A DNA stretch of 64,000 nt from Voacanga thouarsii. Its lineage: Eukaryota > Streptophyta > Magnoliopsida > Gentianales > Apocynaceae. Shown one piece after another: positions 1-62,829 of the stretch. The position numbers and the translations under genes were made by a program. The stretch lies in NCBI GenBank assembly GCA_026120185.1, contig JANUWF010001723.1, positions 868,001 to 932,000 on the forward strand, given 5' to 3'. The first letter of the stretch is position 1, and each line of letters begins with the position of its first letter. The notes beneath the pieces were generated by a model that was not told where the DNA came from, ran no database searches, and saw nothing but the letters and a program-made list of their open reading frames with translations.

Positions 1-336
1 TATATTTTATCTTTCTCAAAAATTTTTTAAATATTATAATATTATCCTCTTAGTATAATTTCCTCTCCCCACCCCGTCCCCCAAACCCCAAGTTCTTGAT
101 TTTGTCTCTTAATAGAATATATCATTTTGCATTATTGGTTTTCCCCAAATCCCATCTAAGACATTTTTTCCCCTTTTCATTCAGACATCTAAGCAATTAT
201 TATAATAAGGGAAATTTACTAGTTTTAACATGTATTTTAGTTTTCTCTTTGCAATAAAAGGCTTAATACCATGGCCTCGTCTCTGGATATAAAAATTTAA
301 GTTTGGATGGGTAAAAAGAAAAGAAAAAAAGAATTT
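1..336. other. Intergenic AT-rich DNA
   Basis: No gene, long open frame or clear repeat is visible. The stretch is AT-rich with a short C-rich patch near 66-90 and ends at the left edge of the first copia LTR. Confidence 0.6.
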
Positions 337-651
337 TGTTATAAAATATGAAATGTTAAGTGGCTGTTCATTTTCTTAACAATAGTAAGTGACTGTTCGT
401 TATCTTGAAGATAATGTGACTGTTCGTATATTGTGACTATTCGTTTTCTAAGGTTATTAAATTCATTTTTTAACCTTTCAGATTCTGTAACCTTTCAAAT
501 TTTATATCGAAACCTCTATAAATAGGGATCATATGTAAACAAACGAACAATCAATGAAATCGTATCTAAACGATTCTCTCTCTTATCTCTAGTATCTTTA
601 CTTTATAATTTTATATTTACTTATTCTATTTTGAATCAAATTCACAATACA
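337..651 (+). repeat. 5' LTR of copia-1
   Basis: Starts TGTTATAAAATATGAAATG and aligns throughout with 5644-5939. It contains repeated GTGACTGTTCGTT-type words, a TATA box (TATAAATAG, 517-525) and a downstream pyrimidine-rich stretch. The primer-binding region follows at about 652-680 (TTAGCACGAGACTCTACC); the same TCAGCACGAG core lies next to the 5' LTR of the 57.5-kb element. Confidence 0.85.
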
Positions 652-755
652 TTATTAGCACGAGACTCTACCGAAGTTGTTTTACTGAAGGTTCTCATCA
701 CGGGTTATAACAAAATAGGAAGGTAGGTACTTTTCCTATTTGCTTTTGTATTCAC

Positions 756-1829
756 ATGGCAAATCTCACCAAATTTGAATTTGCAACTCTTGATATTACT
801 GGAAAAAACTAGTTATTTTGGACACTAGATGCTGAAATGCATTTAGCTGCAATGGGTCTAGCAGATACCATTGTAGAAGGAAATCCATCATCATCGCAAA
901 ATGATGCTAAAGTTATGAGTTTTCTCCGCCATCATCTTTATGATGACTTAAAAGTTGAATACCTTACCCTGAAAAATTCACTTATTTTGTGGACTAATTT
1001 AAAAGAAATGTTTGATCACCAGAAGAAGGTTGTCCTTCCAAAGGCACGGTATGACTGGATGCACTTGCGATTACAAGATTTTAAATCCGTTAGTGAGTAT
1101 AATTCTGCTATTTTTAAAATTAGCTCGCAGCTAAAACTGTGTGGAAAAAATATTACTGATGAGGATATGTTAGAAAAAACTTTCTCTACTTTTCATGCCT
1201 CGAATGTGCTCCTACAGCAGCAATATCGAGAAAATGAATTCAAAAAGTATGCAGAATTAATATCTTGTCTTCTCGTAGTTGAGTAAAATAATGAGCTATT
1301 AATGAAAAATCATGAAACTCGACCAACAGGTTCTACTCCATTCCCAGAAGTGAATGATGTTAGAACTCGTAATTTTGGCCCTGGAAGAGGTCGTGGTCAT
1401 GGATATGGCCGTGACCGTGGACATATATATGGTCGTGATAAAAATATTCATTATGATCGCAACAGTCAAAATAAAGTTACGAGAAATAATGACAACCACC
1501 AGAAGTGGCAAAAAACTAACGTGAAAGGAAAAGAAAATGATGTTGTTCCTAAAAATTATGAAGATAAATATTATCGCTGCGGCATAAAAGGTCATTGGTC
1601 TCGTACTTGTCGTACTGTAAAACACATTGTTGATCTGTATCAGGCGTCTATTGAGAAGAAAGGCAAAAATCCTGAAGTAAATTTTACTCTACAACATTCT
1701 TTTCATGATGATGACGATACCAACCTTGACGATGTTGATGTAACTCATTTGGACGTGGCTAATTTCTTTGAGCATCCTAAAGAAAGAATTGATCATTTAA
1801 TTGGTGATGGAAATGTCCAGAAGAATTAG
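756..1829 (+). pseudogene. copia-1 gag relic
   Basis: A single frame from the ATG at 756 reads through a UBN2/gag-like capsid region and a Gly/Arg-rich RNA-binding stretch to a zinc knuckle. In-frame stops occur at 810 (TAG, where relatives carry Tyr) and 1284 (TAA). The knuckle reads YYRCGIKGHWSRTC: the first cysteine of the usual C-x2-C-x4-H-x4-C is replaced by tyrosine, so zinc binding should be lost. The frame closes at 1827-1829, followed by a non-coding AT-rich spacer before pol. Confidence 0.88.
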
Positions 1830-1949
1830 AAGTTTACTTTTAATATGTTCCTTTTATGTTTTATATTTTTTTGCATTGTAATAGTAATTAGCATTTAAAG
1901 TTTTTTATTATTTGAGTATTTAAATTTATAAATGTTGTGTTATACCTAG

Positions 1950-4900
1950 ATGGCTATTATTTCACTTACTGGATATACAAGTGGCATTGAAGATATATGC
2001 CTAATTGATAGTGGTACAACACACACCATATTGAAAGATAGAAAATATTTCTCTTACTTGCAGATGGGAGAAACAAATATTAATACTATAAGTGGTAGTG
2101 TAAAGTTGATTGAAGGCTCTGGAAGAGCTAATATTGTATTACCCGGAGGAACAAATATTGTTATTTCTAAAGTATTATTTGCTTCCAAATCTCGAAAAAA
2201 TTTAATAAATTTTAAAGATATTTGCCGAAATGGGTATCACATTGAGACAATGGAAGAAAATGGTTTTAAGTATCTCTATATTACTAAAAAAATGTCGAGT
2301 AATAAATCTGTATTAGAAAAGCTACCATCTCTTTCATCTGGCCTATATAGCACAAAAATCCATGCAATTAAAGTGCATCATTCAGTAAATAAGAAGTTTA
2401 CTGATCTTGCTACATTTATTATTTGGCATGACTAAAGTATCTGAATTGCCCACATGGTGGATTAATTGGTCCACATATATCACCATGAATTCTTTCTAAA
2501 AATGCTGGAGACTCAAACTCCACTTTTGTTGGAGATGGTTTAATAACCAATTTCCCTTAAGAACATGCAGCACATAAAAATTTATCAGATGTCAAAATCT
2601 TTTGACTTTTCAAATGATGACCATGCGTATTTTCAATTATCATTTGCATCATAATAGCTCCTGATTGATGCATCGACCCGATGGTCGCATGTTAGTTTAT
2701 TATCAACTCGCAACCTGGTGTTCGCGAAATTGCTTGCCCAAATAATTCGCTTAAAAGCGCAATTTTCAGATTATCCTATCAAAAGGATCCGTCTAGATAA
2801 TATTAAAAAATATTCCTCCTAAACTTTTGATACTTATTGCATGTCAATTAACATTACTATTGAACATTTAGTAACTCATGTTCATACTCAGAATGGTCTA
2901 ATTGAATCATTCATTAAACGGTTACAATTAATTGCTAGACCGTTATTAATGAGAATATATCTTCTGACAACTGCTTGGGGACATGCTATTTTGCATGCTG
3001 CAGCACTTGTACACATAAGGCCAACAAGTTATCACAAATTTTCTCATTTACAATTGGCTTTTGGTTTCGAGCCAAATATTGCTCATTTGAGAATTTTTTA
3101 GTATGCTGTGTATGTACCGATAACGCTAAATCAACGTACCAAAATGGGTCCTCAAAGAAGGTTGGGGATATATGTTGGATATTATTCTCCCTCTATAATC
3201 AGATACGTTGAACTATTGACAGGTGATGTATTCACAGCAAGATTTACTGATTGTCATTTTGATGAAACTTTATTTCTTAAATTAGGGGGAGAACATAAAC
3301 CACATAAAAAGGAGTTTGCCTGGACAATATAATTGAATAATTTAGATCCACGCACAAGCGCAAGTGAATTAGAAGTTCAAAAGATCATTCATTTGCAAAG
3401 ACTTGCAAATCAACTGTCATATTTTTTTGCTAACTTTACAAGGGTAACTAAATCGCATATTCTAACTATAGATGCTCTTATTCCGATAGAAGTCCCAACA
3501 GGACAAAATACAATTCCTATAGCTACTGAATCAAAAACACGTCAGAAACGTGGACGACCCATTGGTTCAAAAGATAAAAATCCTCAAAAGAAAAGACAAT
3601 TAAATGATCAGAATGATCCAATTGAAGAATTAGGAAAATGAGATCAAGTGGAAACTGATGAAAAGATCCAAATATTTGAAAATAGTGAACAGAATAGTGA
3701 GATGCCCATTAATTATATAACTTCTGGCAGAAGTTGGAATCGGACGGAAATAACTGTTGATGATATTCAATATAGCACTTGAAGTGTTAAAAGATAATAA
3801 GGACCTTGAACCAACATCAGTTGAAGAATGTCGTCATAGAAATGATTGACCAAAATGGAAAGATGCGATTCAATCGGAGTTAAGCTCACTTGTAAAGCGT
3901 GAGGTTTTTGGACCTGCAGTCCGAACACCAAAACGTATAAAACCAATTGGTTATAAATGGGTATTTGTGCGAAAACGAAATGAAAATAATGAAGTCGTAA
4001 GATATAAAGCACGACTTGTGGCATAAGGTTTTTCTCAAAAATCGGGTATTGATTACGATGAAACATATTCACCTGTAGTGGATGTAATTACACTCCGATA
4101 CCTTGTGAGTCTAGTAGTACGTGAAAAGATTGGCATGCGTCTAATGGATGTTGTGACAGCTTATTTATATGGGAACCTTGATAATGATATTTATATGAAA
4201 ATCCCAGAAGGATTTAGTATGCCTGAAGCATATAATTCTAACCCTCGTGAAAATTATTCTATTCAATTACAAAAGTCATTATATGGCTTAAAGCAGTCTG
4301 AACGCATGTGGTATAATCGTCTTAGTGAATATTTATTGAAATTGGGATATAAAAATGATTCACTATATCCATGTATTTTTATTAAGAAATTTGGATCTGA
4401 TTTTGTGATACTTGCGATATATGTTGATGATATTAACCTTATTGGAACTCCAGAAGAACTTCAAAAGGCAAGAAATAGCCTGAAGTAAGAATTTGAAGTT
4501 AAGGATTTTGGCAGAACCAAGTTTTGTCTTGGTTTACAAATTGAGCATCTAGAAGATGATATTTTTATTCATCAATCAACATACACAACAAAAGTTCTTA
4601 TATGGACAAAGCACATCTATTAAGTTCTCCAATGGTCGTGAGGTCATTAGATATAAATAAAAATCCTTTTCGACCTCGGGAAGATAATAAAGAACTACTT
4701 GGTCCTGAAGTACCCTATCTCAGTGCAATTGACGCATTGATGTACCTTGCTAATAATACTAGATCTGATATAATATTTTCTGTGAATTTATTAGTAAGAT
4801 TCAGTTCTTTCCCAATACAACGACATTGGAATGAGATTAAACATGTCCTAAAATATTTCCAAGGGACAATAGATCTTGGATTATTTTATTCAAATAGAAC

Positions 4901-5417
4901 CAGTCCAATGTTGATTGGATATGCTGATACTGGTTATCTATCCGATCCACAAAAAGCACGTTCTCAAACTGGTTATCTATTTACATGTGGTGGTACTGCT
5001 ATATTATGGCGCTCTACAAAACAATCTATAGCAATTATTTCTTCTAATTATGTTGAAATTATAGCTATTCACGAGGCAAGCTGATAATGTGTGTGGTTGA
5101 GATTAATAATCCATTATATCCGAGAAAATTGTGAATTACCTTCTGAAAAGGAAATTCCAATACCTTTTTATGAAGATAATGCAACTTGTATAGCTCAATT
5201 AAGAGGTGGATATATTAAAAAAGATAGGACAAAACATATTTCACCAAAATTTTTCTTTACTCACGAACTCCAGAAGAGATATGAAATTGATGTGCAACAG
5301 ATTTGATCATGTGATAATTTGACAAATTTACTCACTAAGGCATTGCCGACTACTTCATTTGAAAAATTAGTACATAGAATTAGAATGCGTCGGTTGAAAG
5401 ATATAAAGTCATCTTGA
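1950..5417 (+). pseudogene. copia-1 pol relic (PR-IN-RT-RH)
   Basis: Domains in order: aspartic protease with DSGTTHTI (about 2010); start of the pre-integrase zinc region ending in WHD (2432); an inverted block (2433-2670); forward integrase core from DASTRW (2667) to the IESF segment carrying the last catalytic Glu (about 2900); integrase C-terminal domain; reverse transcriptase with YVDDI (about 4420); RNase H with the GYAD and EIIAIHEA segments; and the tail ending at 5417. In-frame stops lie at about 2818, 3099, 3330, 3639, 4024, 4486 and 5083. A frameshift occurs near 3775 and a small deletion near 4600. The GEF segment after the second catalytic Asp of integrase is also corrupted. It is a dead copy. 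Confidence 0.9.
2433..2670 (-). other. Inverted segment inside copia-1 integrase
   Basis: Read on the minus strand this block encodes the missing part of integrase: GAIMM, THGHHLKSQKI, FLCAAC, SPTKVEFESPAFLERIHGD, ICGP and CGQFRYF. On the plus strand the preceding sequence stops at WHD and the following sequence resumes at LIDASTRW. The block therefore sits at its proper position but is flipped. About 10 bp are missing at the left joint. The right joint lies in a small palindrome (TGATGCATCA). Confidence 0.88.
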
Positions 5418-5643
5418 AGATGTTATTAAGAGGGGGAGTATGTATATTGTACTCTTTTTCCCTAACTAAGATTTTTTCCTACTGGGTTTTTTCTTAGTTA
5501 GGTTTTTAATGAGGCAATATTTCCTCCAGAACAGAAAGTGTACTCTTTTCCTTCACTAGGTTTTTATTCCACAGGGTTTTTTCTATGAAAGTTTTTAACG
5601 AGGCATTTTTCGAAATGGTTGAAAATGAACATCCAATGGGGAG
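5418..5643 (+). other. copia-1 3' untranslated region and polypurine tracts
   Basis: Contains AGAGGGGGAG (about 5429) and a second purine tract TGGGGAG directly before the 3' LTR. Between them a ~100-bp unit is present twice (about 5441-5520 and 5539-5610). Each copy carries GTACTCTTTT, an ACTGGGTTTT or ACAGGGTTTT word, and AATGAGGCA or AACGAGGCA. The copia element at 57.5 kb has one copy in the same place. Confidence 0.7.
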
Positions 5644-5939
5644 TGTTATGAAATATGAAAGGTTAAGTGACTGTTCATTTTCTTAACAATATTAAGTGAC
5701 TATTCGTTATCTTGAAAATAATGTAACTGTTCGTTTTCTAAGGTTATTAAATTCATTTCTTAACCTTTCAGATTTTGCAACATTTCAAATTTTATATCAA
5801 AACCTCTATAAATATGGATCATATGTAAACAAATGAACAATCAATAAAATTGTATCTAAACGATTCTCTCTCTTCTCTCTAATATCTTTACTTTATAATT
5901 TTATATTTACTGATTTTATTTTGAATCAAATTCACAACA
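5644..5939 (+). repeat. 3' LTR of copia-1
   Basis: Begins TGTTATGAAATATGAAAGG and ends TTCACAACA. It aligns with 337-651 with several indels, including loss of a ~20-bp TGACTGTTCG-type repeat, and many substitutions, so the insertion is old. Confidence 0.85.
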
Positions 5940-6211
5940 AATTCATTATTCTTTGAAACGACTTTAATACTCATCTAAAACATAATATTATGAAATATTT
6001 TATCTAAATTTAAATATCTCATTTTTATTAAATTTTTCATTTTAAAAGGAGAATATAAAGTAGTAAATATTGTTAGATATTAAATGGAAATAAAAATTTT
6101 TAATTGTGGATCACATATTTAAGTGGGACTATTCAATGTGAAATATCTCAATACTTGAATGTATGTAATTAATATGATTATTGTTTAAGTAAATAAACAA
6201 TAAAAGGATGC

Positions 6212-46491: not shown

Positions 46492-49400
46492 ATGTATTCA
46501 AAGCGATCTACCGAAGATGATGGCGCTGTTTCTAGGCCAGTTCGTACAAGTGATAGACTCCGGTCAAGGCCAAAATTATATGGTCGGCCATACTTGTACT
46601 ACACTCCAACCATTATCCGTCCAAAGAGAAGGAAGACCAAAACAAGGACTGCAGCTTCTCAGATTGCGAAGATGTTGCGCCCTGGTAATCGGCCATTACG
46701 GACACCAAATGCAAATGTATGTTGTATTGCAGCATTTCTTTATCTTATGCTGCACTACCATGGGTTTTCAGTACTATAAGTTGTCTCTTTGTAGAGATCT
46801 AGGGTCTTCAAGTCATTGTTAATGTGGAGGAGCTTTGCATCTTGAGTTTCCAGTTGAAGTCTCCACTTTCCCTGTCATGGTTTGCTTCTCTAGTGGAACT
46901 GAATGTGTAATGTGAATAATTTTTTTGTAGAGTTTAACATGTGATTGGATGGATTGGGGGGGGGGGGAATGAAATGGTGCAAAGAAAATGAGTTTGCATC
47001 TATTGCAGATTGCTTCTTCAATTTTAGTTTTTCCCTCCCTTTGATGTTTCTCTTTTTTGGTGTTGATTCCATCTACATTGTTCTTCTAATTTTGATTGTA
47101 ACTGGTCTTGTGGTGTAACAAATTCAGCTTCAGCTGTTGAAAGTCAGATCAAAGTCCTGAAGATTGTGATAAGGTCATATTGGTGGTTGTTGGGTACACT
47201 TTTGAAGAGATATGTGAAGAGATAATACTCATGGGACATGCTAAAGAATATGAGTATGCTGAAAATAACAGGCTGATATCCATTTTACCAATTCCAACTG
47301 AAATCAATCCAAAGTGTCCATGAGCATCTCCATGTGTATTGGTGGATGTTGGTACACCTGTAACTTAATGTTTCGACTCCCAAATGACCTTTATTTCAGT
47401 TGTGGTTAGCAAGCTTTTCCCAAAGTGGGGGAAAAGAAAGGAATGAAAGGCAAAACAGACATTTTTTTTTTTTTTGTGTTCTTGTATTCTTTGTACTTGC
47501 TTATTATGTCATAGTTAGTATTTCATCGTTTTGGTTATTTTTGGGTGCCATTTATGAGTAAGATTACTGTCATTGGGGGACTAATCTTTTGTAAGCCTCA
47601 AAACATGCTGCTTCTGAATTTCTTTTAAGTGAAGTTGATATAGGTTTTTTCTGGTTTTATTGCAGTCAGTTGTTACCAACCTTCGGCGTTCTACTAGACA
47701 GAGAAGATTATCTGTGAATCTGGAAGACTACACAGACAGTTCTGGCACAGATGACAATGATTTGATGGTTAGGTCCTCTGTTATCTTGGATTTCAATTCT
47801 CACAAAGAATTGTAATTTAAAGGTTCTGTGCTCATCATAATTTGAGTGAGATGATTTTATTCACTCCAAAATTCATATGTTGCTTTAATTTTATTTCAGA
47901 GCCCCAAGTATCGGAGTCCCAAGTTCCGAAGTGCTAGGAATCATATAGATAATAATAGTGCAAGTCAGGATGAATTACTGCCGCGGCGTGAAGGATTGCG
48001 CCCTCGACGAGAAGGACTGCGCCCCCGACATAAGAGAAGAGTTGCAAGGGAACAGCTAAATCTAGAGTCTGATGATGAACCAGCTACATCTCAAGAGAAG
48101 ATTGGCGACGATGAACCAGAAAATGGGAATGACATAGAAGATAATGAAGCTGATGATGGCGAGGGTGAGGATGATGGTGGTGGTGAGGGTGATGGAGAGG
48201 ATGAGGGCGAAGATGATGGAGAGGAAGATGGTGACGATGAAGAGGGTGAAGGACAGGAAGGTAGAAGGCGATATGATCTTCGTAATCGTGCAGATGTTCG
48301 CAGGCTTTCCGTTGAAGAGGGTAAACAAAGGCCAAGGTCTCCTCGAAGGGTGCTTCAGCAAGGAATGGGGACTAAGGTTAACAGGGATGTTAGAAGAGGT
48401 GGATCTCGTGTTCACAAACGTCATCGCCTAACACGAGCTGAAGACTCTGATGACTCTCTTCTTGTGGATGAGTTGGATCAAGGTCCTCCTATTCCTTGGG
48501 GAAGAGGTGGGAGCAGATCTGGACCACCTTGGCTTTTTGGGGGCTTGGAGATGCATGGCGCAACCTCATGGGGATTGAATGTTGCCGCTTCTGGATGGGG
48601 TAATCAAAATGATAACCCTGCTACTTTGACCTCTGGTATTCAGACTGCTGGGCCAAGCTCCAAAGGTGGGGCTGATATTCAACCTTTACAAGTTGATGAC
48701 ACTGTTAGTTTTGATGATATTGGAGGACTTTCTGAATATATTGATGCCTTGAAAGAAATGGTCTTTTTCCCTTTGCTTTATCCTGACTTTTTTGCAAGTT
48801 ACAACATCACCCCTCCAAGAGGAGTCTTGTTATGTGGTCCTCCTGGCACTGGGAAAACACTTATTGCAAGAGCTTTAGCTTGTGCTGCGTCAAAGGCTGG
48901 TCAAAAAGTCAGTTTTTACATGCGTAAAGGTGCAGATGTGCTTAGCAAATGGGTTGGTGAGGCTGAAAGGCAATTGAAACTTTTATTTGAAGAAGCTCAG
49001 AGGAATCAACCTTCTATTATTTTCTTTGATGAGATAGATGGTCTTGCTCCTGTTAGGTCTAGCAAACAGGAGCAGATTCATAACTCCATTGTGTCGACTT
49101 TGCTTGCCTTGATGGATGGCCTTGATTCAAGGGGACAGGTAGTCTTGATTGGAGCAACAAACAGGGTTGATGCTATAGATGGAGCCTTGCGACGCCCTGG
49201 AAGATTTGATCGGGAATTTAACTTTCCATTGCCTGGCTGTGATGCTCGTGCTGAAATTTTGGACATTCATACGAGGAAATGGAAGCAACCTCCTTCAAAG
49301 GAGTTAAAGTCGGAACTTGCAGCTAGTTGTGTAGGATATTGTGGGGCTGACTTAAAGGCCTTATGTACTGAAGCTGCCATTCGTGCTTTTCGCGAAAAGT

Positions 49401-52400
49401 ATCCCCAAGTTTACACCAGCGATGACAAATTCGTGATAGATGTTGATTCAGTAAAGGTGGAGAAGTATCATTTTATGGAAGCCATGTCAACAATCACTCC
49501 TGCTGCTCACAGAGGCTCTATTGTGCATTCTCGGCCATTGTCGTCTGTTGTTGCACCATGTCTACAAGGACAGCTCCAGAAAGCCATGAGTATTGTCTCA
49601 GATGTTTTCCCTCCTTTCGCAGTTTCATCAGAATTGGCCAAGTTTTCAATGCTTTCATACGGCTCCACAATCCCTCTTGTTTATAGGCCTCGACTTTTAC
49701 TTTGTGGTGGTGACGGTGTTGGTCTGGTAATTATCTTTAAACTCCTTTCTGACGCCAGTTGGTGAACTTTGGAAACTGAAAACTAAGAATACTTACTGGT
49801 TTAGTTTTACAGGACCATATAGGGCCAGCAATTTTACATGAATTGGAAAAGTTTCCTGTTCATTCGCTTGGACTTCCCTCTCTTCTATCTGATCCCGGTG
49901 CGAAAACTCCAGAGGAGGCACTAGTTCACATATTTGGTGAAGCAAGGAGAACGACACCATCAATACTCTATCTGCCACAATTTCATCTTTGGTGGGAGAA
50001 TGTGAGTAATACTGTTGATTTAATTTCTTTTCTTGCTGATTATCGGCACAGAAATGATTTTGGTTGGCTGGTGTTCCTTAGATGCAAAATAGTACTTTTT
50101 TCACGAATGTAGTCTGTGCAGGCACATGAGCAACTTAGGGCTGTTCTGCTGACACTGTTGGAGGAACTGCCATCTGATTTGCCCATATTTTTATTTGGCA
50201 CATCCTTAGTGCCACTTGATGAGCTACCTGAAAATCCTTCTTCAATATTTCGTCCTCATAATGTGTGAGTTTTTTTGAACCATTTTTGAGCTCTCTCTCT
50301 CTCTCTCTTTCTAGTCGGGATACGTCACAATCTTTAGTTAAATGAAGGCATTGACAGATAGAGTCTAACTATAAGTTTAGTTTTGAATTTTGTTTCCCCA
50401 TTCATAATAACTAGGCACAATATTATCACGATATCAGCTGATTTTTGCATACTTTTGTTCATAGATTCGAGAAAGCATGATGTTTGTAGCTTAACTTCTG
50501 CATGCAGGATGTTTCCATGTTTAAGAGTATTGTGATTATGTTATGTTTCTTTTGGCACAGTTTAGTGTTAAACACGCCGTCTGCTGAAGATAGGTCTCTG
50601 TTCTTTGATCGTCTGATTGATGCTGCTTTGTCGGTACAATATGAGGATGTGACAACGAAATCAAATCAACTGGAATCCCTTCCCGAACTCCCAAAGGCAC
50701 CAAAAGTGGCTTCTGGACCAAAGGTCTCTGAATTGAAGGCCAAAGCTGAAACACAGGGGCATGCTCTTCGCCGTTTGCGTATGTGTCTGCGTGATGTGTG
50801 TAACCGGTAATAAAGACTAGTCTGAGATGAGTTCATCTTCAATTTTGAATTTCACTTTGTCAATTTTGTGCTTAAAAATTTGCTTCATATTTGTGCACAA
50901 TGGTTTGTAGAAGAGTTGTGCTAAAACATAGTTTTGACATCAATCCCTACCAATTGAGAGTGTTTTGATGTACCAAGCCACATATTGTATTCTCTTAATG
51001 AATGGGGAGTTGCGTTATGGAGTCTTTAGTATCTTCTACCTAGTTGCAGACTGGGATATCAGAAGTATAAGTATGTCATGAAGGTTGGAAATTTTTTCTT
51101 TTGTTAAAAGTGTAGGTCTGTTTTCAGCAAGTTGAGAGAAAAACTTGAATAGCAATGAGATGGCTAATTGTATAGTTGTTTATCAATTAAAACTTTTGAT
51201 TCTAGCAACTTTATAGCTAAGGTGGTAGCAGATTTCTAATCCCAACATTTATAACACCAAATCAGAAGAAAGTGAAACTGTAGAAGTTATAAACTATCAT
51301 CATATCTAGTTCAGCATTTTGGTTGTGCTTCTGTTGCTTTTGCTTTTACACTTGGATTATGGCAAATTACCAAAATAGTTGAAGCTCAACTAGCAGAAAT
51401 CCGAAGTGTTGTGCTTTTGTGGTGTGTTTGTCATCTACAATGCTTGTAATGTCATTGTGTTTTTCTCTTTCTTTCTTCTCTTGGGTGCATGTTTGTGGGG
51501 TTTAAAGGTAGATTGCTGTTCTTATTAATGAGAATTTTCAATTGCCGTTCTTATTAATTAGAAGTTTCAATTATCTATTGGAAAGAAGTTCCAGAATGCT
51601 TCATCCCCCCCCCCCCTCTCCCTCCCTCCCCCTCCCCCTCTTTCCCCATTATTTTCTTTCTTTTCTTGGGGTGGGGCTTTAAAAGTTAAAATTGGTGTCC
51701 CTATTAATGAAAAGTTTTGATAATCCATTTATAAAAATTATTCTTGGATTAATTAATTTCCCAAGTTATTTTAGTACTCTTGAGATGAGATGCTTGTTTT
51801 AATCTCTTTAGTATGTGAAGTTCATCATGATATTTGTGCATAATATGCTGCTATTGTCTAAAACACAATCTGAACCAGGACCATGACTGATTTCAAGACT
51901 TTCATATGAAATTTGCTTCCCCTCTGTCTGTGTTTTGATCTAGGATTCTATATGATAAACGTTTTGGTGTCTTCCATTATCCCGTCATGGATGAGGATGC
52001 ACCCAACTATCGCTCGATTATACAGAACCCTATGGACATGGCAACATTGCTGCAGCATGTGGACAGTGGCAAGTACATGACATGTAAAGCATTTTTGGAG
52101 GATTTTGACCTGATTGTGACCAATGCCAAGGTGTGTGCAAAGTAGTAATTGTAGATTTTGTTTGCACTCATGTGCAAATGCTTGCTTTCTCTTTGTTATT
52201 ATTCCGGTGTTCAAGATCTCTGGTTTATTCGAATTTCTTCCCTCTTGCTGGTTTCAGTGTGTGTGATGCTATCGTAGATTATATAACACCACTGCATTTC
52301 CATATTTTTTCATAGCTTCCATCTTGTAGATAATATTATCCAAAATCTTTACGAGTTGGGATGGAGATTTCTGTTTCCATGTTTTTTTGTTCCTTTTTTA

Positions 52401-55487: not shown

Positions 55488-56792
55488 CTAGTTACATAAC
55501 TCACGTGAAATGCCCAAACGAGAATTTGCAGTGTCAAACAAAATCCTAAGATTTTGCTGCTGCAAATTGGCAATGACATTCAACACAGAGTTGACATTGT
55601 TTGGTGCAGCTGCCATAGCCAGACATGCCAAGGAACCAGCACTGCTGTGTATCAAACTGTTCTCCATTGGCAGCACTAAATTTAACCCTTGAAAATGGAA
55701 TGTAATTGGTGGTGCTATGTCCTCATTTGTGGTAGGAAAGCACGTGTCAAATGCTCCCAATGAACTGTAAGGTCCTTTCACTTGGTTTCTAAACTCATCT
55801 CTCGTTGCATTGTAAATAGGTTGGACAAACCGCGTTATAACCGTTCCCGAGTCAATGATGGTACCTGCACCCGTGTTTGGGTCAAATGCAAGGAGCTCTG
55901 GAACAATGGGGACTCGAACACGGCCCACGCTTACACCAGTGAAGTTCACGTAGTATAAGGATGGTCTATGCGGGTTCTTTAGAAGCGGGGTAGTTTTGAT
56001 GCTCTTGGGCTGACCCACAGGCCCGAGTTTGAGTGAGCCAGAAAAATAAAATGATTTGAAACTAGGTAAACAGTATGAGAACATGCCCGAGTAAAGGGAC
56101 CCGGATTGTGAGAGCAAAGACATAGAGCCCCGACCCAAGCCCAACAATCCTTGGGGTGGAATTGACCCTCCTGACACTGCACTGATGCACCCAAAAGCAT
56201 AATTTGGAATTACATCATTGGCTAATCTGAGGGAATCCCGGGACAGCGTGGCAGCAAATGATGAATCCCCACCGTAGGTTTGGTTAAAGAAGCAGGAAAC
56301 AGAGCCCGTTGCCGGGCAAGAGAGCCCGCTAACCTGAGTGCATTCTGGCACAGAGCAGTCTAAGGACCCATAAGTGGTGGAGGTATTGGGGGCAAACATG
56401 GTGGATGAGCAGCCAGTACAGCCGCTGCATGGAACCCATGCAATATCATTACTAGTATCCAAAACCATGAACATGAGCTGGCCCGGTGTCCCAATCTTGG
56501 CCCGAACTACATAGTTGCCCACATCTAGGACCTGTTTGCCGGAAGCAATTGGGACAGAAGAGCCCTTCAGGGCAACTAGGCTTGACAAATAAGCAACCCT
56601 CTGAGGGTCTTTGGAGGCCATGTCCATGACTGTGTTGATCCATGTTGAAGCAGGTTTTGGAGAGCTGAAAGGTGAGCATTTGCCATAGATGTTGATGACG
56701 GAGAGGTCTGATTTAGAGGAAGCACAGGGATCAAATGCCCTTGTGGTTGCAATGAGAAAAGTGAAGAACAATGTAGTTTTAGCCAAGTCCAT
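55488..56792 (-). CDS. AED3: Secreted nepenthesin-like aspartyl protease, AED3-like
   Basis: A single uninterrupted 434-aa frame. An N-terminal signal peptide (MDLAKTTLFFTFLIATTRAF) indicates secretion to the apoplast. Residues 94-117 hold the first catalytic block, with DTS at 112-114 where classical pepsins have DTG. Cysteine-rich PCSGCTGC follows. The flap-region tyrosine is plausible in NQTYGGDSSF, and the second catalytic block IIDSGTVITRF has DSG at 314-316. LYYVNFTGVSVG and NLQQQNLRILFD are hallmarks of the plant A1B (nepenthesin-like) subfamily. From memory it is closest to Arabidopsis At1g09750 (AED3), an apoplastic protein induced in systemic immunity. Full length, no introns, convergent with the ATPase gene. 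Role by homology only. Confidence 0.95.
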   Translation of the reverse strand: MDLAKTTLFFTFLIATTRAFDPCASSKSDLSVINIYGKCSPFSSPKPASTWINTVMDMASKDPQRVAYLSSLVALKGSSVPIASGKQVLDVGNYVVRAKIGTPGQLMFMVLDTSNDIAWVPCSGCTGCSSTMFAPNTSTTYGSLDCSVPECTQVSGLSCPATGSVSCFFNQTYGGDSSFAATLSRDSLRLANDVIPNYAFGCISAVSGGSIPPQGLLGLGRGSMSLLSQSGSLYSGMFSYCLPSFKSFYFSGSLKLGPVGQPKSIKTTPLLKNPHRPSLYYVNFTGVSVGRVRVPIVPELLAFDPNTGAGTIIDSGTVITRFVQPIYNATRDEFRNQVKGPYSSLGAFDTCFPTTNEDIAPPITFHFQGLNLVLPMENSLIHSSAGSLACLAMAAAPNNVNSVLNVIANLQQQNLRILFDTANSRLGISRELCN

Positions 56793-57506: not shown

Positions 57507-57511
57507 GGGTC

Positions 57512-57848
57512 TGTTATAAAATTAGGGTAGTGTTAGAATAAAATCTTCACACTACACACTAATAAAACTCTAACTATTTTGCACAAGAATTTCTCTCTTT
57601 CTTTTCTCTCACAATTTTCTCTAATCTTTCTTTCACAAAATAATGGTGTATTACAAACTTAGAGCATAACTCTATTTATAGAGCTCTAATTAGTGGAATA
57701 CATCATGGCATACATCATCTTCAACTAATCTCAATTAATGGTATCTCCACTAAATGGTGGACATCCATAAAAATCTTCTAATAATTCACATAAATCTATA
57801 ATTAGTGGAGCCTCCACTAATTAATGGAGATTCCAATAATTCATAACA
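57512..57848 (-). repeat. 3' LTR of copia-3
   Basis: 337 bp. By eye it differs from the other LTR by about four substitutions plus absence of one 15-bp tandem copy. The reverse strand carries a TATAAATAG box. Confidence 0.93.
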
Positions 57849-57972
57849 CTCCCCCTTGGATGTCCATCCATACATAAAGAATATGCCTCGTTAAAACCTT
57901 ACTAGATAAAAATCCAGTGGGAAAAAAAATCTAGTGAAGGAAAAAGAGTACACTATTCTATATGTTTGTTTA
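57849..57972 (-). other. copia-3 polypurine tract and 3' untranslated region
   Basis: On the minus strand: stop of pol, GGGGGAG, then the GTACTCTTTTTCC, ACTGG and AACGAGGCA words also seen (twice) in copia-1, then a second purine tract CCAAGGGGGAG touching the LTR. Confidence 0.75.
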
Positions 57973-59486
57973 TTACTCCCCCTGATGAGATGATTCCTTT
58001 AAATCTTTAAACCGACGCATACCGATTTTATATCTCAACTTCTCAAATGTTGCAGTCGATAAAGTCTTCGTGAAAATATCTGCGAGGTTGTCACATGACC
58101 GAATTTGTAGCACATCAATTTCACATTTCTTCTGGAGTTCATGAGTAAAGAAGAATTTTGGTGAAATATGTTTTGTCCGATCTCCTTTAATATATCCTCC
58201 TCGTAATTGAGCTATGCAAGCTGCATTGTCTTCATAAAGAGGAATTGGAATACCTTTGATTGATGATAATCCACAACTTTCTCGGATATAATGAATCATG
58301 GATCTTAGCCATACACATTCTCGACTTGCTTCATGAATGGCTATAATTTCAGCATGATTTGAAGAAGTAGCTGCTATAGATTGTTTCGTAGAACGCCATG
58401 ATATAGCAGTATTTTCACATGTAAATAGATAGCCCGTTTGAGAACGTGCTTTATGTGGATCAAATATATAACCAGCATCTGCATAACCTATCAATGTTGG
58501 ATTGGTTTTATTTGAATAAAATAATCTGAGATCAATTGTACCTTGGAGATATCGAAGGACTTGTTTAATTCCATTCCAATGTCGTCGTGTTGGTGAATAA
58601 CTAAATCTTGCTAATAAATTGACAGCAAAAGCAATATCAGGCCGTGTGTTATTAGCAAGATACATCAATGCACCAATTGCACTGAGATATGGTATTTCAG
58701 GACCAATGAATTCTTCATCATTTTCTTGAGGTCGGAAAGGATCTTTATCCACATTTAATGATCGGACAATCATTGGAATACTCAATGGATGTGCTTTGTC
58801 CATGTAAAATCTTTTTAGCACTTTTGCTGTATATGTTGATTGATGAATAAATGTTCCACTCTCCAAATGTTCAATTTGTAAACTAAGGCAAAATTTGGTT
58901 TTACCAAAATCCTTGATTTCGAATTCTCTTTTTAAATAATCAATTGTTTCTTGGAGCTCTTCAGGAGTTCCAATAGGATTAATATCATCAACATATATAG
59001 CTAATATCACAAATTTAGAACCAGATTTCTTAATAAAAACGCATGGACATACCTGGTCATTTTTAAATCCCACTTTCAATAAATATTCACTAAGACGTGT
59101 GAACCACATGCGCCCAGATTGCTTCAGGATTAAATGATCTTCTGGATCATTTAATCCTCTTTTCTTTCGAGGATTTTTATCTTTAGAACCAAGAGGTCGG
59201 CCACGCTTCTGGCATGTTTTTGACTCAGCAGCTATAGGTATAATATTTTGTTCTGCTGGAACTTCAATTCGAATAGGAGCATTTATAGCTGGAATATGCG
59301 ATTTTGTAACTCTTCTGGAGTCAACAAAAGCGTCTGGCATTTGATTTGCAATGATTTACAAATGAATTATCTTTTGAATTTCAAGTTCACACGCGCTTGT
59401 ATGCGGATTAAGATAATTTAATGATATTGTCCAATCACGATCTTTCTTGTACTGTTTCTGTTCTCCCCCTAATTTAGGGAATAATG
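57973..59486 (-). pseudogene. copia-3 truncated pol (integrase tail, RT C-terminus, RNase H)
   Basis: From 59486 to 59341 frames are broken but match the integrase-RT linker (KLGGENRN, CELEIQK). From 59340 a 455-codon frame is open: linker with GRPLGSKDKNPRKKRG, then a direct jump from NDPEDHLI to LKQSGRMWFTRLSEY. This skips roughly the first 230 residues of reverse transcriptase. It then continues with the catalytic YVDDI, FGKTKFCLSLQIEHL, RNase H motifs (GYADAGY, HAEIIAIHEAS, YEDNAACIAQL) and the usual end at HQGE. Without the RT fingers and the first catalytic Asp it should be inactive, but the frame itself is undamaged, consistent with a young insertion. Confidence 0.9.
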
Positions 59487-59487
59487 A

Positions 59488-59662
59488 TTTCACAAGAGAA
59501 TAAAAAAAGAAATATAAGAAAATGATGACAAGCAGAAAATACCAAGAAAAATATCTCTTTTTTTTTCACTCTTCTCGGTACCGACTTTTCCTCTTCCTCT
59601 CTTGTCTTTTCTTCTCCTCCGACCCTCTACCTACCATCTACCTCTTCTTCTTCCTCATACAG

Positions 59663-59694
<32 letters not shown>

Positions 59695-60005
59695 CGATAT
59701 ATATCTCGATCATCGATCATTAGGAAATATCAAAAACAAAAATCACAAAGCAGATATGGAGACTCGTAATTCATTTGAGACATGGTCAAATTTTGACTCG
59801 GTTTCTGCAATGATTTTGATGTATTTTCCTTTCCAAACCAACCGCTTCGCCTAATTCGAACGCGTAAGATTTTGATATGTTTTCCTTTCCAAACCAACCG
59901 CTTCCTCCTAATTTCAAGTGAGATACCTTTGAGGGCTTCCATTTGTTTTTAGTATGCTTGATAATGAAATTAAACTCTCTTTTGGTTTGTTTTTTATGTA
60001 AATCG
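59488..60005 (+). promoter_or_regulatory. Upstream and 5' leader region of the captured RKD gene
   Basis: Holds a pyrimidine-rich stretch (59550-59650), a (TA)n run (59662-59690) that could act as a TATA region, and a short frame METRNSFETWSNFDSVSAM from 59756 that closes at 59854. A strong donor GTAAGA lies at 59865 and a T-rich acceptor TTTTTAG ends at 59952, so a 5' UTR intron is plausible. A 56-bp tandem duplication lies at 59812-59918. The exact transcription start is unknown. Confidence 0.5.
59812..59918. repeat. 56-bp tandem duplication upstream of RKD
   Basis: Two adjacent units each contain GATTTTGAT, then TTTTCCTTTCCAAACCAACC, then GCTTC and CTAATT. They differ at a few positions. 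Confidence 0.85.
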
Positions 60006-60941
60006 ATGGAAGTTTTGAACATACCGCTTTGGACCAAGTTGATCTCGCCCTACAAGAGACTCGCTTTTGATACTGTTCCTCTTGATGCTATTCCTTTGAA
60101 TGAGGATATACTTGTGCATGATCCTTTCTACTCTCTAATGGATTTTGAACAAAGCCAGAATATGATTCCAGGTTATTATACATTTAAACATGGATTTTGA
60201 ATGGTATTATCTTTATCGATATTATTTTCTTTTTCTAGGAGAAATAATGAGTGGTCTTGGCAACGAAGTCGGAGTAAGTACTCATGAAATGCATAATATC
60301 GAAGTTCAAGATATTATTGCGTATAAAATTCCCGGGGAGAAGAAGATGATTAAGAGGCAGAGAGAGAAGAAGGACAATAACTCCCAGACACTATCAAGAG
60401 AAACAATTTCGCAAGATTTTTACCTACCAATCAAGAGCGCAACCAAAGAACCGAATATTGGCATAACCCGTCTCAAGAAAAGATGTAGGGAGTTAGGAAT
60501 TCGTCGATGGTCTCACAGGAAATTGGTGAGCTTGGAGACCATAATCAAGAATGTTCAGGTTCTCTCTCATACATACTTATAATTTGCAAGTATGAAACTA
60601 TGAAAGATTTATAAGTAAATAACAGATGATATCACTTCGATTTACAGGATAAAGAAGAAGGAGGACATATGACTGAGAAGAAATTAAAAGAAGCCATTGC
60701 GATACTGGAATGTGAAAAACAGTTGGTGGAAGAAAGTCCTAATACGCAGTTAGAGGACCAAACACAGAAATTGAGACAAGCATGCTTCAAGGCCAAATAT
60801 AATAAGAAATATAATAAACTTAAAGAGATCATAAAATCTCAAGACTCATTTCGCAGTAATTTTACGGCTATTCTGCTGCTAGTCTCGATGTTGGCTCAAA
60901 TGGGAAAGAAAATGAGGAGGATGTCGAAAAAGAGGAGTTGA
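60006..60941 (+). CDS. RKD: RKD-type RWP-RK transcription factor inside copia-3
   Basis: Three exons, 60006-60171, 60239-60558 and 60648-60941, with GT-AG introns of 67 and 89 bp; the sum is 780 nt (259 aa) without a stop. An in-frame ATG at 59964 would add 14 residues. The N-terminal region is variable; a Lys-rich stretch precedes the RWP-RK domain (about 108-160), which reads ISQDFYLPIKSATKEPNIGI then TRLKKRCRELGI and RRWSHRK, then SLETIIKNVQ. The name-giving proline of RWPxRK is serine here. The last exon has EAIAILECEKQLVEE and KLRQACFKAKYNKK, the coiled-coil and C-terminal motif typical of the RKD subfamily. RKD proteins are nuclear DNA-binding factors acting in egg cells and early embryos, and RKD1 is tied to nucellar embryony in citrus. 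This copy is antisense to its host retrotransposon. Whether it is expressed is unknown. Confidence 0.85.
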
Positions 60942-61081
60942 AGTCCATAATTACTAATTGTTTGTCGTCCTCTAATGTAAATATTGAAAAAGAACAATTA
61001 CAAACCTTCATCTTACATTTGTCAGCTCAATTACAAAAGAGCAACTATAAGCATGTATCATCAAGTTCATATGAACACTAG
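60860..61081 (+). other. Coding-like continuation of RKD in another frame
   Basis: In the frame one base behind the exon-3 frame, 73 codons are open: YSAASLDVGSNGKENEEDVE, then KSIITNCLSSSNVNIEKEQL and FILHLSAQLQKSN, to TAG at 61081. The composition looks protein-like, while the current exon-3 frame ends in an odd Met/Lys/Arg-rich tail. This suggests a small indel near 60850-60900 moved the C-terminus, or that a splice form exists. Confidence 0.4.
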
Positions 61082-61109
61082 TGATATGAATAAAAGATGT
61101 GATGCTTAT

Positions 61110-61705
61110 TATTAATGGAAATATCTTTTTCACTTATTATCTTTTCTGTTCCACTTCAGGTGGCCAGTATTTCTCTGTGATAAGAGAAATATCGAGTGTG
61201 TCCATGACCATAACCACGGCCACTGCCACAACTACGACTATAACGATGGCTTCTGCTGGAGCCAATAGCATTCACTTCTGGGAGTGCTGTTGAGCCAGTT
61301 CATCTGGCTTCATAATTTCTCAATAATAACTCATGTTAAAGCTGTCAATTTTGAATACCCTTTTTCTCGATATTGTTACTGTAGAACATGAAAAGTGAAG
61401 AATGTCTTCTCCAATATAACTTCATCAGTAACTTTTTTTCCGTAAAATTTTTAACTAAGATGTAGTTTTATACATCACGGAGTTCACGGTTTTACAATCT
61501 TGCAACTTCAGTGCAACCATTCATACCGTGCAATGGGTAGTACGACCATCTTCAGGTGGTCAAATCTTTCTTTTTATCCACATGACATATGGATCTCTTT
61601 TTTTTTTAGCATTTAGATGCATTTTTGTATGACATATAAATTTTTTTTCAGAAATATCAAGGGCTACAAATTCGAATTTAGCGAGATCAATAAATGCGTA
61701 CTGTC
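61110..61705 (-). pseudogene. copia-3 gag relic
   Basis: Read leftward: LAKFEFVALDIS, a stretch matching KMHLNA, EKTFFTFHV, QQYRE-like, LLLRNYEA, TGSTALPEVNAIGSS, then the Gly/Arg/His-rich RGYGHGH stretch and HLKWNRKDNK. Many stops and deletions interrupt it. The zinc knuckle is missing because the foreign RKD segment begins here. Confidence 0.75.
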
Positions 61706-61745
61706 TTCTCGGCTTTAATAACTGCAGAGACTCGTGCTGATAACG

Positions 61746-62097
61746 TGTTATAAAATTAGGGTAGTGTTAGAATAAAATCTTCACACTACACACTAATAAA
61801 ACTCTAACTATTTTGCACAAGAATTTCTCTCTTTCTTTTCTCTCACAATTTTCTCTAATCTTTCTTTCACTAATCTTTCTTTCACAAAATAATGGTGTTT
61901 TACAAATTTAGAGCATAACTCTATTTATAGAGCTCTAATTAGTGGAATACATCATGTCATACATCATCTTCAACTAATCTCAATTAATGGTATCTCCACT
62001 AAATGGTGGACATCCATAAAAATCTTCTAATAATTCACATAAATCCATAATTAGTGGAGCCTCCACTAATTAATGGAGATTCCAATAATTCATAACA
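61746..62097 (-). repeat. 5' LTR of copia-3
   Basis: 352 bp, 15 bp longer than the other LTR because TAATCTTTCTTTCAC is duplicated. The TATA box on the minus strand is at 61921-61929 (TATAAATAG). Transcription from it would run through gag and then antisense to the RKD gene. Confidence 0.93.
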
Positions 62098-62829
62098 GGG
62101 TCAACATTGTTAGCTACTTTTTCTATGTAAAATTAATAGGGCTAATAATTAAACAAATAAAGTAATTATCCCGTAGGCAACCCAAGATGCGTGAAGCTGT
62201 TCGGACAAAATACCTCGGTGTCCACGAGTGAACCAGACCAACAGGGACTATCATTTGTCCATTGAGGCGGATGTTGACAGAAAACAACAGTAGCCTTGAA
62301 TGTAGAGATCGAATTGTGGAACTTATCTTCAATTTTTCACATTAGATGCAGTGAAAAATGATTATGTGAAAATGAACAGATGAACAAATGTCTGAATTCC
62401 TCAAAACATAGTACAGCAGTGGAATAGTTCAGACCATCAGAAACTTCTGTCGGTGTATTGTCATTTACGGCGTATTTTTTTGAAGATACATATAGTATTG
62501 TAACTATTGTCTATATATTTACAGTCAAATATAAACAAATTACTACTATTTAATACGGGTAATAACTTATCTAATATACAGAGAGAGTTCCATGTAAGAA
62601 GCTGATTGATCTTGGAGAAAGATAAGTTCGATGAAAATCATGAGGACACTGAAGTGGATAAAATAGAACTCGTGAACTCTTTGTGGTGTAAAATGAGCTG
62701 AAATTTTTTTGAGTCATTGTCTTCATACAAGTGAGACACGAGCCACGGTCGGTCACGGGCATAGAATGATAGGAATCACTCTCAAGAAGCAAAACTATCC
62801 CTTCGGTCACGAGCAATTATAGGAATAAA

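Follow-up and report, generated by a model that had tools for sequence, protein, structure and literature searches.

An antisense RKD gene carried by a high-copy, non-autonomous copia family of Voacanga thouarsii, with signs of selection on its reading frame

Introduction

RKD genes control egg-cell identity in plants. In the stretch of Voacanga thouarsii DNA analysed here (64,000 nucleotides, hereafter the window), a gene of this type lies between the long terminal repeats (LTRs) of a retrotransposon, in the orientation opposite to gag-pol. How did a host regulator come to be there, and does its product matter to the element that encloses it? Gene capture by LTR elements is already known. As far as the consulted portion of one survey goes, captured genes usually stand in the gag-pol sense and in one or few copies, and the origin of most antisense open reading frames is unexplained (PMC7264820).

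A copia-type element reduced to relics

A copia-type element in minus-strand orientation occupies 57507-62102. It is bounded by an exact target-site duplication (TSD), GGGTC (57507-57511 on the left, 62098-62102 on the right). Inside lie two minus-strand LTRs which, in the direction of the element itself, are the 3' LTR (57512-57848) and the 5' LTR (61746-62097); both begin TGTTAT and end ATAACA. Alignment over 337 nt shows 4 substitutions between them, besides a difference of one 15-nt tandem unit; in four other copies of the family the right LTR ends ATAATA. Both priming sites were identified by position and by likeness to a related copia element at 337-5948 of the window. A polypurine tract, AAGGGGGAG, adjoins the 3' LTR (57849-57857, minus strand), matched by AATGGGGAG at the corresponding position of the related element, and the primer-binding-site (PBS) region adjoining the 5' LTR (61727-61745, minus strand) contains TTATCAGCACGAGTCTC where the related element has TTATTAGCACGAGACTC. 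The perfect TSD, the near-identical LTRs and the two priming sites named in the original prediction were all recovered, and TG...CA ends, a 5-bp duplication and priming sites beside the LTRs are the marks of Ty1/copia elements. An aspartyl protease gene adjoins the element and is 89% identical to an Ilex paraguariensis protein (over 87% of the query), with unnamed proteins matching as well.

The element's own genes survive as relics. A 455-aa frame (57973-59340, minus strand) covers the C-terminal half of the reverse transcriptase and the downstream, RNase H-like pol region; its match to the RVT_2 profile (70 bits, profile positions 122-243 of 244, hence the C-terminal half only) identifies a reverse transcriptase of copia type. 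The window copy lacks about 670 nt of pol that nearly all other copies read possess. Likeness to the related copia extends the upstream pol relic to the RKD border (59341-59492, minus strand), with 59136-59492 aligning to 3263-3618 of that element; this fragment is all that is left where an integrase would be expected, upstream of the reverse transcriptase, and a profile search covering the 455-aa frame gave no integrase match. On the other side of the RKD gene lies a gag relic (61108-61726, minus strand), which clearly resembles the related copia from about 61171 onward and does so most strongly at 61269-61574 (69% identity over 61349-61574, with many gaps). In all 20 copies that we fetched from elsewhere in the genome, gag is likewise a relic of about 640 nt. 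The longest frames in the element's sense, listed for three copies, measure 455 aa in the window, 345 aa in L011 and 126 aa in L012, and the family lacks the intact gag, protease, integrase and reverse transcriptase of an autonomous element. That gag and pol relics flank an oppositely oriented gene had been proposed, and an RWP-RK gene does lie between them on the other strand.

The captured RKD gene

The captured segment occupies 59493-61107 on the plus strand, with an uncertain right border at about 61096-61171. Its sole Pfam match is the RWP-RK domain (PF02042, 54.8 bits against a cut-off of 29.3), and the PB1 domain of NLP proteins was not found, a combination that places the gene in the RKD subfamily. 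Many of its closest relatives are named RKD1 or RKD2, each bearing PF02042 and one a further domain too. A sequence search for a solved RKD structure found none, and Rfam returned nothing at gathering scores. Capture by a Pack-TYPE DNA transposon was rejected, as no inverted pair stands at both ends of 59493-61107 and the border repeats measure merely 7-9 nt.

The original prediction described a three-exon gene splicing to an open, potentially expressed protein of 259 aa. The spliced frame is indeed open, but the gene to which it belongs has four exons. Exon 1 (59757-59917, plus strand) begins METRNSF and contains tandem repeat units, whose length in other copies is 57 nt (19 aa); its frame is broken in the window, and in other copies it is joined by splicing to exon 2 (60007-60171, plus strand). 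RKD N-terminal motifs stand upstream of the predicted start in other frames, at 59774 and 59815/59871, with scores that none of 150 shuffles reaches (a third N-terminal motif was not significant in the shuffle test). The predicted start codon itself (60006) exists because the exon 2 acceptor, CAG|TGG, reads CGATGG in the window copy, and the first 18 aa of the 259-aa protein are therefore out of frame. Exon 3 (60239-60558, plus strand) carries the RWP-RK domain, in which the RWPxRK motif has become RWSHRK; among the 19 of 40 copies readable at this motif, 18 have RWP and the window copy alone RWS. Exon 4 (60648-61081, plus strand) lacks 9 nt at its start in the window copy, and its conserved C-terminus, EELKSIITNCLSSSN..., is found in a different frame; near 60869 all 39 other copies have one base more than the window copy. 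An AATAAAA resembling a poly(A) signal was seen by eye near the end of the segment (61089-61095, plus strand).

The upstream motifs, the exon structure of the other copies and the lost acceptor rule out the 259-aa protein as the gene's real product. With its acceptor lost, both ends out of frame, RWS in place of RWP and changes at 8 of the 53 positions at which RKD relatives hardly vary, the window copy reads as one decayed member of a four-exon RKD family. Neutral simulation of this copy alone put the joint probability of its state at about 0.04 or less at any of the divergences tried, a weak test that has been superseded.

A mobile family of about two thousand copies

Matches to k-mers were counted over the host genome (1.35 Gb, both strands), with reversed k-mers as controls. 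A 43-mer from the RKD end beside gag gave 1,955 matches (975+980), a gag-relic 31-mer 2,018 (998+1,020), an RWP-RK 45-mer 2,378 (1,201+1,177) and an exon/intron 55-mer 1,388; each control gave 0. The 43-mer and the gag 31-mer stand 220 nt apart in the window, and on contigs C2-C239 a gag place lies at 209-222 nt from 40 of the 51 43-mer places among the matches listed (hand count). The 20 fetched copies, which together with the window make up our 21 full copies, all contain RKD and the gag relic, and 19 contain pol; RKD abuts gag in all 20, and pol abuts RKD directly in 19 (gap 0-6 nt). Eighteen have an exact 5-bp TSD of their own, and these TSDs vary between copies. LTR divergence (K2P) ranges from 0 to 0.06 with a median of 0.011 (n=19, the 18 exact-TSD copies and the window), and two fetched copies, L011 and L014, have identical LTRs. 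These results show a non-autonomous family that has moved recently and reached a high copy number, about two thousand. A search with an Ilex RKD protein for the donor gave at least 211 matches (147 of 6,365 candidates scored), among which no single-copy gene could be distinguished; many other RKD-like sequences are present in the same genome.

The original prediction took the TSD around the unit as the reason to regard RKD as cargo and proposed a search for further LTR-RKD copies at separate loci. Such copies turned out to be common, and the cargo reading stands, though on other grounds. The TSD alone is insufficient, because an RKD sequence nested later in a resident copia would also fit within it. 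Later nesting, like an origin of the LTRs from separate insertions around a host RKD gene, is refuted by the recurrence of RKD between gag and pol at 19 further loci and by the exact TSDs of 18 of the 20 fetched copies; we give it practically no weight. The arrangement repeated at many loci strongly supports the view that RKD moved as cargo of the LTR element. It is also highly improbable that the copies reflect collapsed or duplicated repeats in the assembly: base quality is imperfect, with 1-nt indels concentrated at CAG/CTG, but 37 of the 39 fetched places lie on contigs of at least 1 Mb and the TSDs differ from copy to copy.

Selection on the RKD frame

Among the 21 full copies, pN/pS in exons 3 and 4 is 0.23 (0.14-0.36), while the two other frames give 0.84 and 0.89; pol, read in 20 copies, gives 0.58 in its coding frame and 0.44 and 0.58 in the others, and is free of frame-specific constraint. 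The same bias appears in 40 copies among shared variants, with 13 of 18 synonymous in those found in at least 4 copies (6.1 expected, P=0.001) and 19 of 35 in those found in at least 2 (11.4 expected, P=0.007), where the P values are approximate because the copies were not sampled at random and have variants in common through descent and apparent mosaicism. Singletons are close to neutral (in the 40 copies 21 of 59 are synonymous, with 16.1 expected; 25 of 87 against 23.6 in another comparison), and nonsense variants occur at the expected frequency (7 against 6.9). Within the 40 copies, the RWP-RK part by itself shows no clear constraint (of the variants shared among 21 copies, 4 are synonymous and 6 nonsynonymous), and exon 2 has a pN/pS of 1.07 (0.43-2.96). 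Subfamily B (L060, L064-L067), which has exon 3 open, differs from subfamily A in the RWP-RK part with a pN/pS of 0.19 (0.08-0.39), one wrong frame giving 0.58; B is known from its RKD sequence, and no gag 31-mer stands beside B copies among the matches listed.

As assembled, not one of the 21 full copies keeps an open frame through all four exons as far as the conserved stop, and the exon 3 frame is lost in 21 of 40. Many of the 1-nt indels look like base-calling artefacts at CAG/CTG (CHG) sites, where 37 of 65 non-homopolymer sites fall against a background of 13.5%, so that base quality in the RKD repeats must be considered imperfect. Indels longer than 1 nt are all multiples of three in the exons within 60241-60858 (3 of 3), compared with 3 of 9 in RKD non-coding sequence, 4 of 17 in gag and 1 of 16 in pol; this test left out the C-terminal part of RKD, where 4 copies carry a 2-nt indel. 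L011 and L014, despite identical LTRs, carry broken RKD frames, and RKD is therefore not needed in cis unless these breaks are artefacts. LTR age and the number of frame-breaking indels are not correlated (rho 0.13, P 0.60, 19 copies).

Taken together, the data support with moderate strength that exons 3-4 were kept by purifying selection while the family spread and that single copies then evolved neutrally. Since the older changes fall preferentially at synonymous sites and pol lacks frame constraint, RKD was probably useful during that spread.

Capture, spread and possible function

The most likely account of the whole is a gene-capturing, non-autonomous copia family whose RKD frame was selected as it spread. 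A copia-type LTR retrotransposon would have lost its gag-protease-integrase core, and a host genomic stretch comprising the promoter side, four exons, three introns and the 3' end of an RKD gene would have been inserted, reversed, at the same place. The resulting family, non-autonomous yet equipped with LTRs, PBS and polypurine tract, presumably moves by means of gag and pol enzymes from intact relatives. The introns would survive because they run antisense in the element's RNA, where splicing cannot remove them; this part of the original prediction is consistent with the GT/AG intron ends at 60172-60238 and 60559-60647, which all but one of the 21 full copies preserve (the exception, L028, has a single GC). 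Our preferred mechanism, put forward tentatively, is that an antisense promoter of its own drives production of RKD protein, and that this protein helps the family to succeed in the egg-cell and embryo lineage, for instance by activating the LTR or by holding cells in a state that permits element transcription. A bolder and rather doubtful version is that the element made a host egg-cell identity factor its accessory gene, with RKD acting back on the element, for example by turning on the LTR in egg cells or young embryos; if true, a selfish element would spread by carrying its own germ-line regulator.

RKD might instead have been a passive passenger, amplified through the LTRs, its synonymous bias stemming from evolution before capture, from several captures or from repeated exchange with host RKD genes that are themselves under selection. 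The broken frames of young copies, the near-neutral singletons and the many RKD-like sequences in the genome, which would make such exchange possible, all suit this explanation, as does the fact that subfamily B is known from RKD and not from the surrounding element. We consider it possible but not probable: the 21 full copies have one arrangement in common, so that the simplest view dates their differences to the time after capture, and exons 3-4 are constrained frame-specifically among them while pol is not. Alternatively, the frame might serve the host or silencing, either through antisense RNA that pairs with element or host RKD RNA and yields small RNAs, or through a few copies acting as host genes. 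The antisense orientation would permit pairing, and a small-RNA role has been proposed for plant LTR elements with antisense open reading frames under their own promoter, according to the sections consulted (PMC7264820); codon-level constraint is not what RNA pairing predicts, and this possibility appears unlikely. Selection on the RKD frame during spread is the explanation that we retain.

The present case is an antisense open reading frame of clear host origin, with its introns kept, about two thousand copies and signs of selection among them; given this origin, copy number and these signs of selection, it becomes testable whether a retrotransposon can gain from carrying a developmental regulator of its host. 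With the family, a single genome also harbours a sizeable natural collection of RKD sequences, a point of relevance to gene counting and to research on egg-cell identity and apomixis.

Comparison with known systems

A literature search combining RKD, RWP-RK and LTR retrotransposon found no paper, and comparison has to be made with systems that share some of the features. LTR elements with transduced host genes include maize Bs1 (PMC13317346) and those of a rice and sorghum survey (PMC3726574); as described in the portions consulted, these too bear host gene sequence and copy it by retrotransposition, some of the captured genes being reported under purifying selection, whereas RKD is antisense, keeps its introns and reaches about 2,000 copies. 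Additional antisense open reading frames are known from Grande (gene23), RIRE2, Retand and PvRetro13, likewise high-copy elements with the frame in many copies and, for some, a suggested nuclear or regulatory role; in the text consulted these frames are located between pol and the 3' LTR, with no clear similarity to other proteins (PMC7264820). In contrast, the captured gene described here is unmistakably an RKD, has introns and replaces gag-PR-IN. Rider of tomato is, like the present family, of copia type. At SUN, an LTR element likewise moved a plant developmental gene, in that case, as far as the excerpted account goes, at a single locus with an effect on fruit shape (PMC13317346), whereas the RKD family is large and known from its sequence. 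Finally, citrus and mango link an insertion and an RKD-type gene to a reproductive trait, polyembryony, through promoter insertions (PMC6090715, PMC10709545); there, according to the parts of these reports consulted, the insertion alters one resident gene, while in the present family the gene resides inside the element.

The RKD-Bearing Element

A single LTR element spans positions 57507-62102 on the minus strand, and two of the features noted in the original prediction of an RKD cargo were recovered: an exact TSD, GGGTC, and near-identical LTRs, which differ by one 15-nt tandem unit and by 4 substitutions in 337 nt. With a fuller copia element of the same window (337-5948) as a yardstick, three remnants can be recognised in the element: a portion of gag, a fragment from upstream of the reverse transcriptase (59136-59492), and a 455-aa frame that covers the C-terminal half of this enzyme and the pol region after it and has an RVT_2 match. 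Between gag and the fragment 59136-59492, approximately 1.6 kb with the plus-strand RKD gene replaces the expected stretch; the left border of this segment is sharp (59492/59493), and the right border is not, lying at 61108 in a weak alignment or at 61171 in a translated one. The yardstick copia is related and older, its own LTRs being 88% alike. The window also holds an AAA-ATPase frame (47996-49765, plus strand) and an intact aspartyl protease gene (55488-56792, minus strand), the latter suggesting a host related to holly.

Mobility and Copy Number

Twenty of the 39 other places found with exon 3 (window excluded) were fetched at full length. RKD adjoins gag in all 20. In 19 of them 0-6 nt separate pol from RKD, and L028 is without pol. 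A search for further copies of LTRs plus RKD at separate loci, each with its own TSD, had been proposed as a check; an exact TSD was present in 18 of the 20. Together with the window copy, these comprise 18 different sequences, AAACT occurring twice, and their LTR divergence (K2P) ranges from 0 (L011, L014) to 0.06, with a median of 0.011. The family displays LTR-type mobility, a shared RKD cargo and recent activity. At a plant substitution rate near 1.3e-8 per site and year, the LTR divergence of the window copy, 0.012, would correspond to an age of about half a million years.

The source genome comprises 1.35 Gb in 1,848 contigs; when it was searched at the DNA level with exon 3, the best 40 of 1,867 candidates were scored, all 40 at 97% or more. 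Pattern searches allowing up to 3 mismatches returned 1,388 matches to a 55-mer spanning the exon 2/intron border, evenly split with 694 per strand, 2,378 to a 45-mer of the RWP-RK domain, and 1,955 to a 43-mer (61089-61131) from the gag-side end of RKD, which by itself may not be junction-specific since the right border is uncertain. A 31-mer of the gag relic, at up to 2 mismatches, gave 2,018, and reversed-pattern controls gave 0 matches for each of the four. By hand count, 40 of 51 43-mer places listed on contigs C2-C239 have a gag 31-mer at 209-222 nt among the places listed; the distance in the window copy is 220 nt. Six exact copies of the 45-mer, some 616 nt apart, form a tandem array of an RKD piece at C198:1601237-1604363.

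Structure of the RKD Gene

The 259-aa spliced protein of the original prediction exists as a frame with a good RWP-RK match, and its relatives are RKD proteins from many plants (top match: 51% identity across 78% of the query). As a real product it is ruled out by RKD N-terminal motifs that lie upstream in other frames, because, as other copies reveal, a separate exon 1 is spliced to exon 2. None of 150 shuffles scored as high as motifs 1 and 2, and 4 of 150 scored as high as motif 3. In those other copies exon 1 (59757-59917) starts METRNSFETWSNF, contains 57-nt repeat units and joins exon 2 at CAG|TGG. The repeat (59812-59904; units of 56 nt in the window) varies from 2 to 5 units across the 21 full copies. 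In the window copy the exon 2 acceptor has become CGATGG, which created the ATG chosen originally; this copy also carries RWS in place of RWP, is 9 nt short at the start of exon 4, and misses one base near 60869 that is present in 39 of 39 other copies. Both inner introns are bounded by GT/AG in 20 of 21 copies, with GC once in L028.

Exons 1 and 2, as scripted for the 20 fetched copies, are jointly open in 7, broken in 5 and not resolved in 8, and are also broken in the window copy; all four exons are open to the conserved stop in none of the 21. Among 40 copies as assembled, exon 3 has lost its frame in 21, is open with RWP in 17 and with RWS in one (window), and has RWP plus a stop in one, frame losses that are upper limits if one-nucleotide indels are read as base-calling errors. 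Outside homopolymers, 37 of 65 such indel sites lie near CAG/CTG, compared with 13.5% of positions (P 2.6e-16), which we infer to reflect base-calling error in CHG-methylated DNA, a systematic assembly error in methylated repeats; substitutions should be less affected. In the fetched copies (L009-L028) the clustering occurs in gag, pol and RKD alike.

Selection on RKD

Across the 21 full copies, exons 3 and 4 show a pN/pS of 0.23 (0.14-0.36). The two wrong frames give 0.84 (0.44-1.86) and 0.89 (0.46-2.20), both with wide intervals. Exon 2 shows 1.07 (0.43-2.96), and pol lacks a frame-specific signal (0.58 in the coding frame, 0.44 and 0.58 in the others). Expected synonymous counts come from a randomisation in which every variant was moved to a randomly chosen site matched for base and CpG context. 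Among 40 copies, the variants found in at least 4 copies were synonymous in 13 of 18 cases (6.1 expected, P 0.001), those in at least 2 copies in 19 of 35 (11.4, P 0.007), and singletons in 21 of 59 (16.1, P 0.09), with no shortage of stop variants (7 vs. 6.9 expected). Nine further copies came from the 55-mer match list; after L068 (short, diverged) was dropped, the eight added copies brought these counts to 22 of 41 (12.1, P 0.001), 34 of 74 (23.3, P 0.006) and 25 of 87 (23.6, P 0.40), to which fixed differences of a second subfamily, B, contribute; B is absent from the 21-copy pN/pS and the 40-copy tests. Wrong frames gave no synonymous excess in the enlarged set, and the bias holds in 49 copies with CHG-context variants excluded. 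The P values are approximate, since variants are shared between copies and mosaic, and the sample is non-random (the copies most similar to the window exon, followed by those at the top of a match list).

Subfamily B (L060, L064-L067) comprises five of the nine further copies and differs by 12-14% from the window in the compared stretch. Its exon 3 is open in all five, with RWP in four and RWL in L067. Against nine copies of the window's own subfamily, pN/pS is 0.19 (0.08-0.39) for the RWP-RK part, 0.80 for the rest of exon 3, 0.43 (0.21-0.98) for exon 4 and 0.36 for the whole, with 0.58 and 1.17 in wrong frames. L064 contains the exact 43-mer (C180:36212-36254), and no gag 31-mer lies beside B copies among the places listed. 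B may thus belong to this element or to a different RKD carrier, and the domain-level figure may partly record changes that happened outside the window-type element.

Possible Mechanism

The family would move with the enzymes of intact relatives, as only a relic of gag remains and the copies with frames listed (window, L011, L012) show neither a protease nor an integrase frame. RKD was probably captured from genomic DNA or antisense read-through RNA rather than from spliced RKD mRNA, since it lies antisense and keeps its introns. Constraint on older changes combined with freedom in recent ones is the trace expected of a gene that benefited active source copies. The usefulness we prefer, tentatively and at somewhat under an even chance, is that RKD acts on the LTR in the egg cell or embryo. 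RKD is broken as assembled in the young copies L011 and L014; unless these breaks are artefacts, RKD could act only in trans.

LTR elements with captured genes (PMC13317346, PMC3726574) and antisense extra ORFs in LTR elements (PMC7264820) are already known. The gene here combines a clear host origin, antisense orientation, introns and about two thousand copies. We found no description of this combination in the literature consulted, nor of RKD/RWP-RK within an LTR retrotransposon in open-licence papers, an absence that is weak evidence.

Other RKD-Like Sequences

In an older RKD-like set (L048-L059), most matched pieces share 74-84% identity with the window RKD. All 12 loci lack the intron ahead of exon 4, and at least 83 of the RKD-like matches listed span that exon junction. 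Within 1.5 kb of these loci, blastn detected neither gag, pol nor LTR of the window type. At L050, a transposase-like open frame (40-855, minus strand), which we take to be hAT-like, adjoins the RKD copy.
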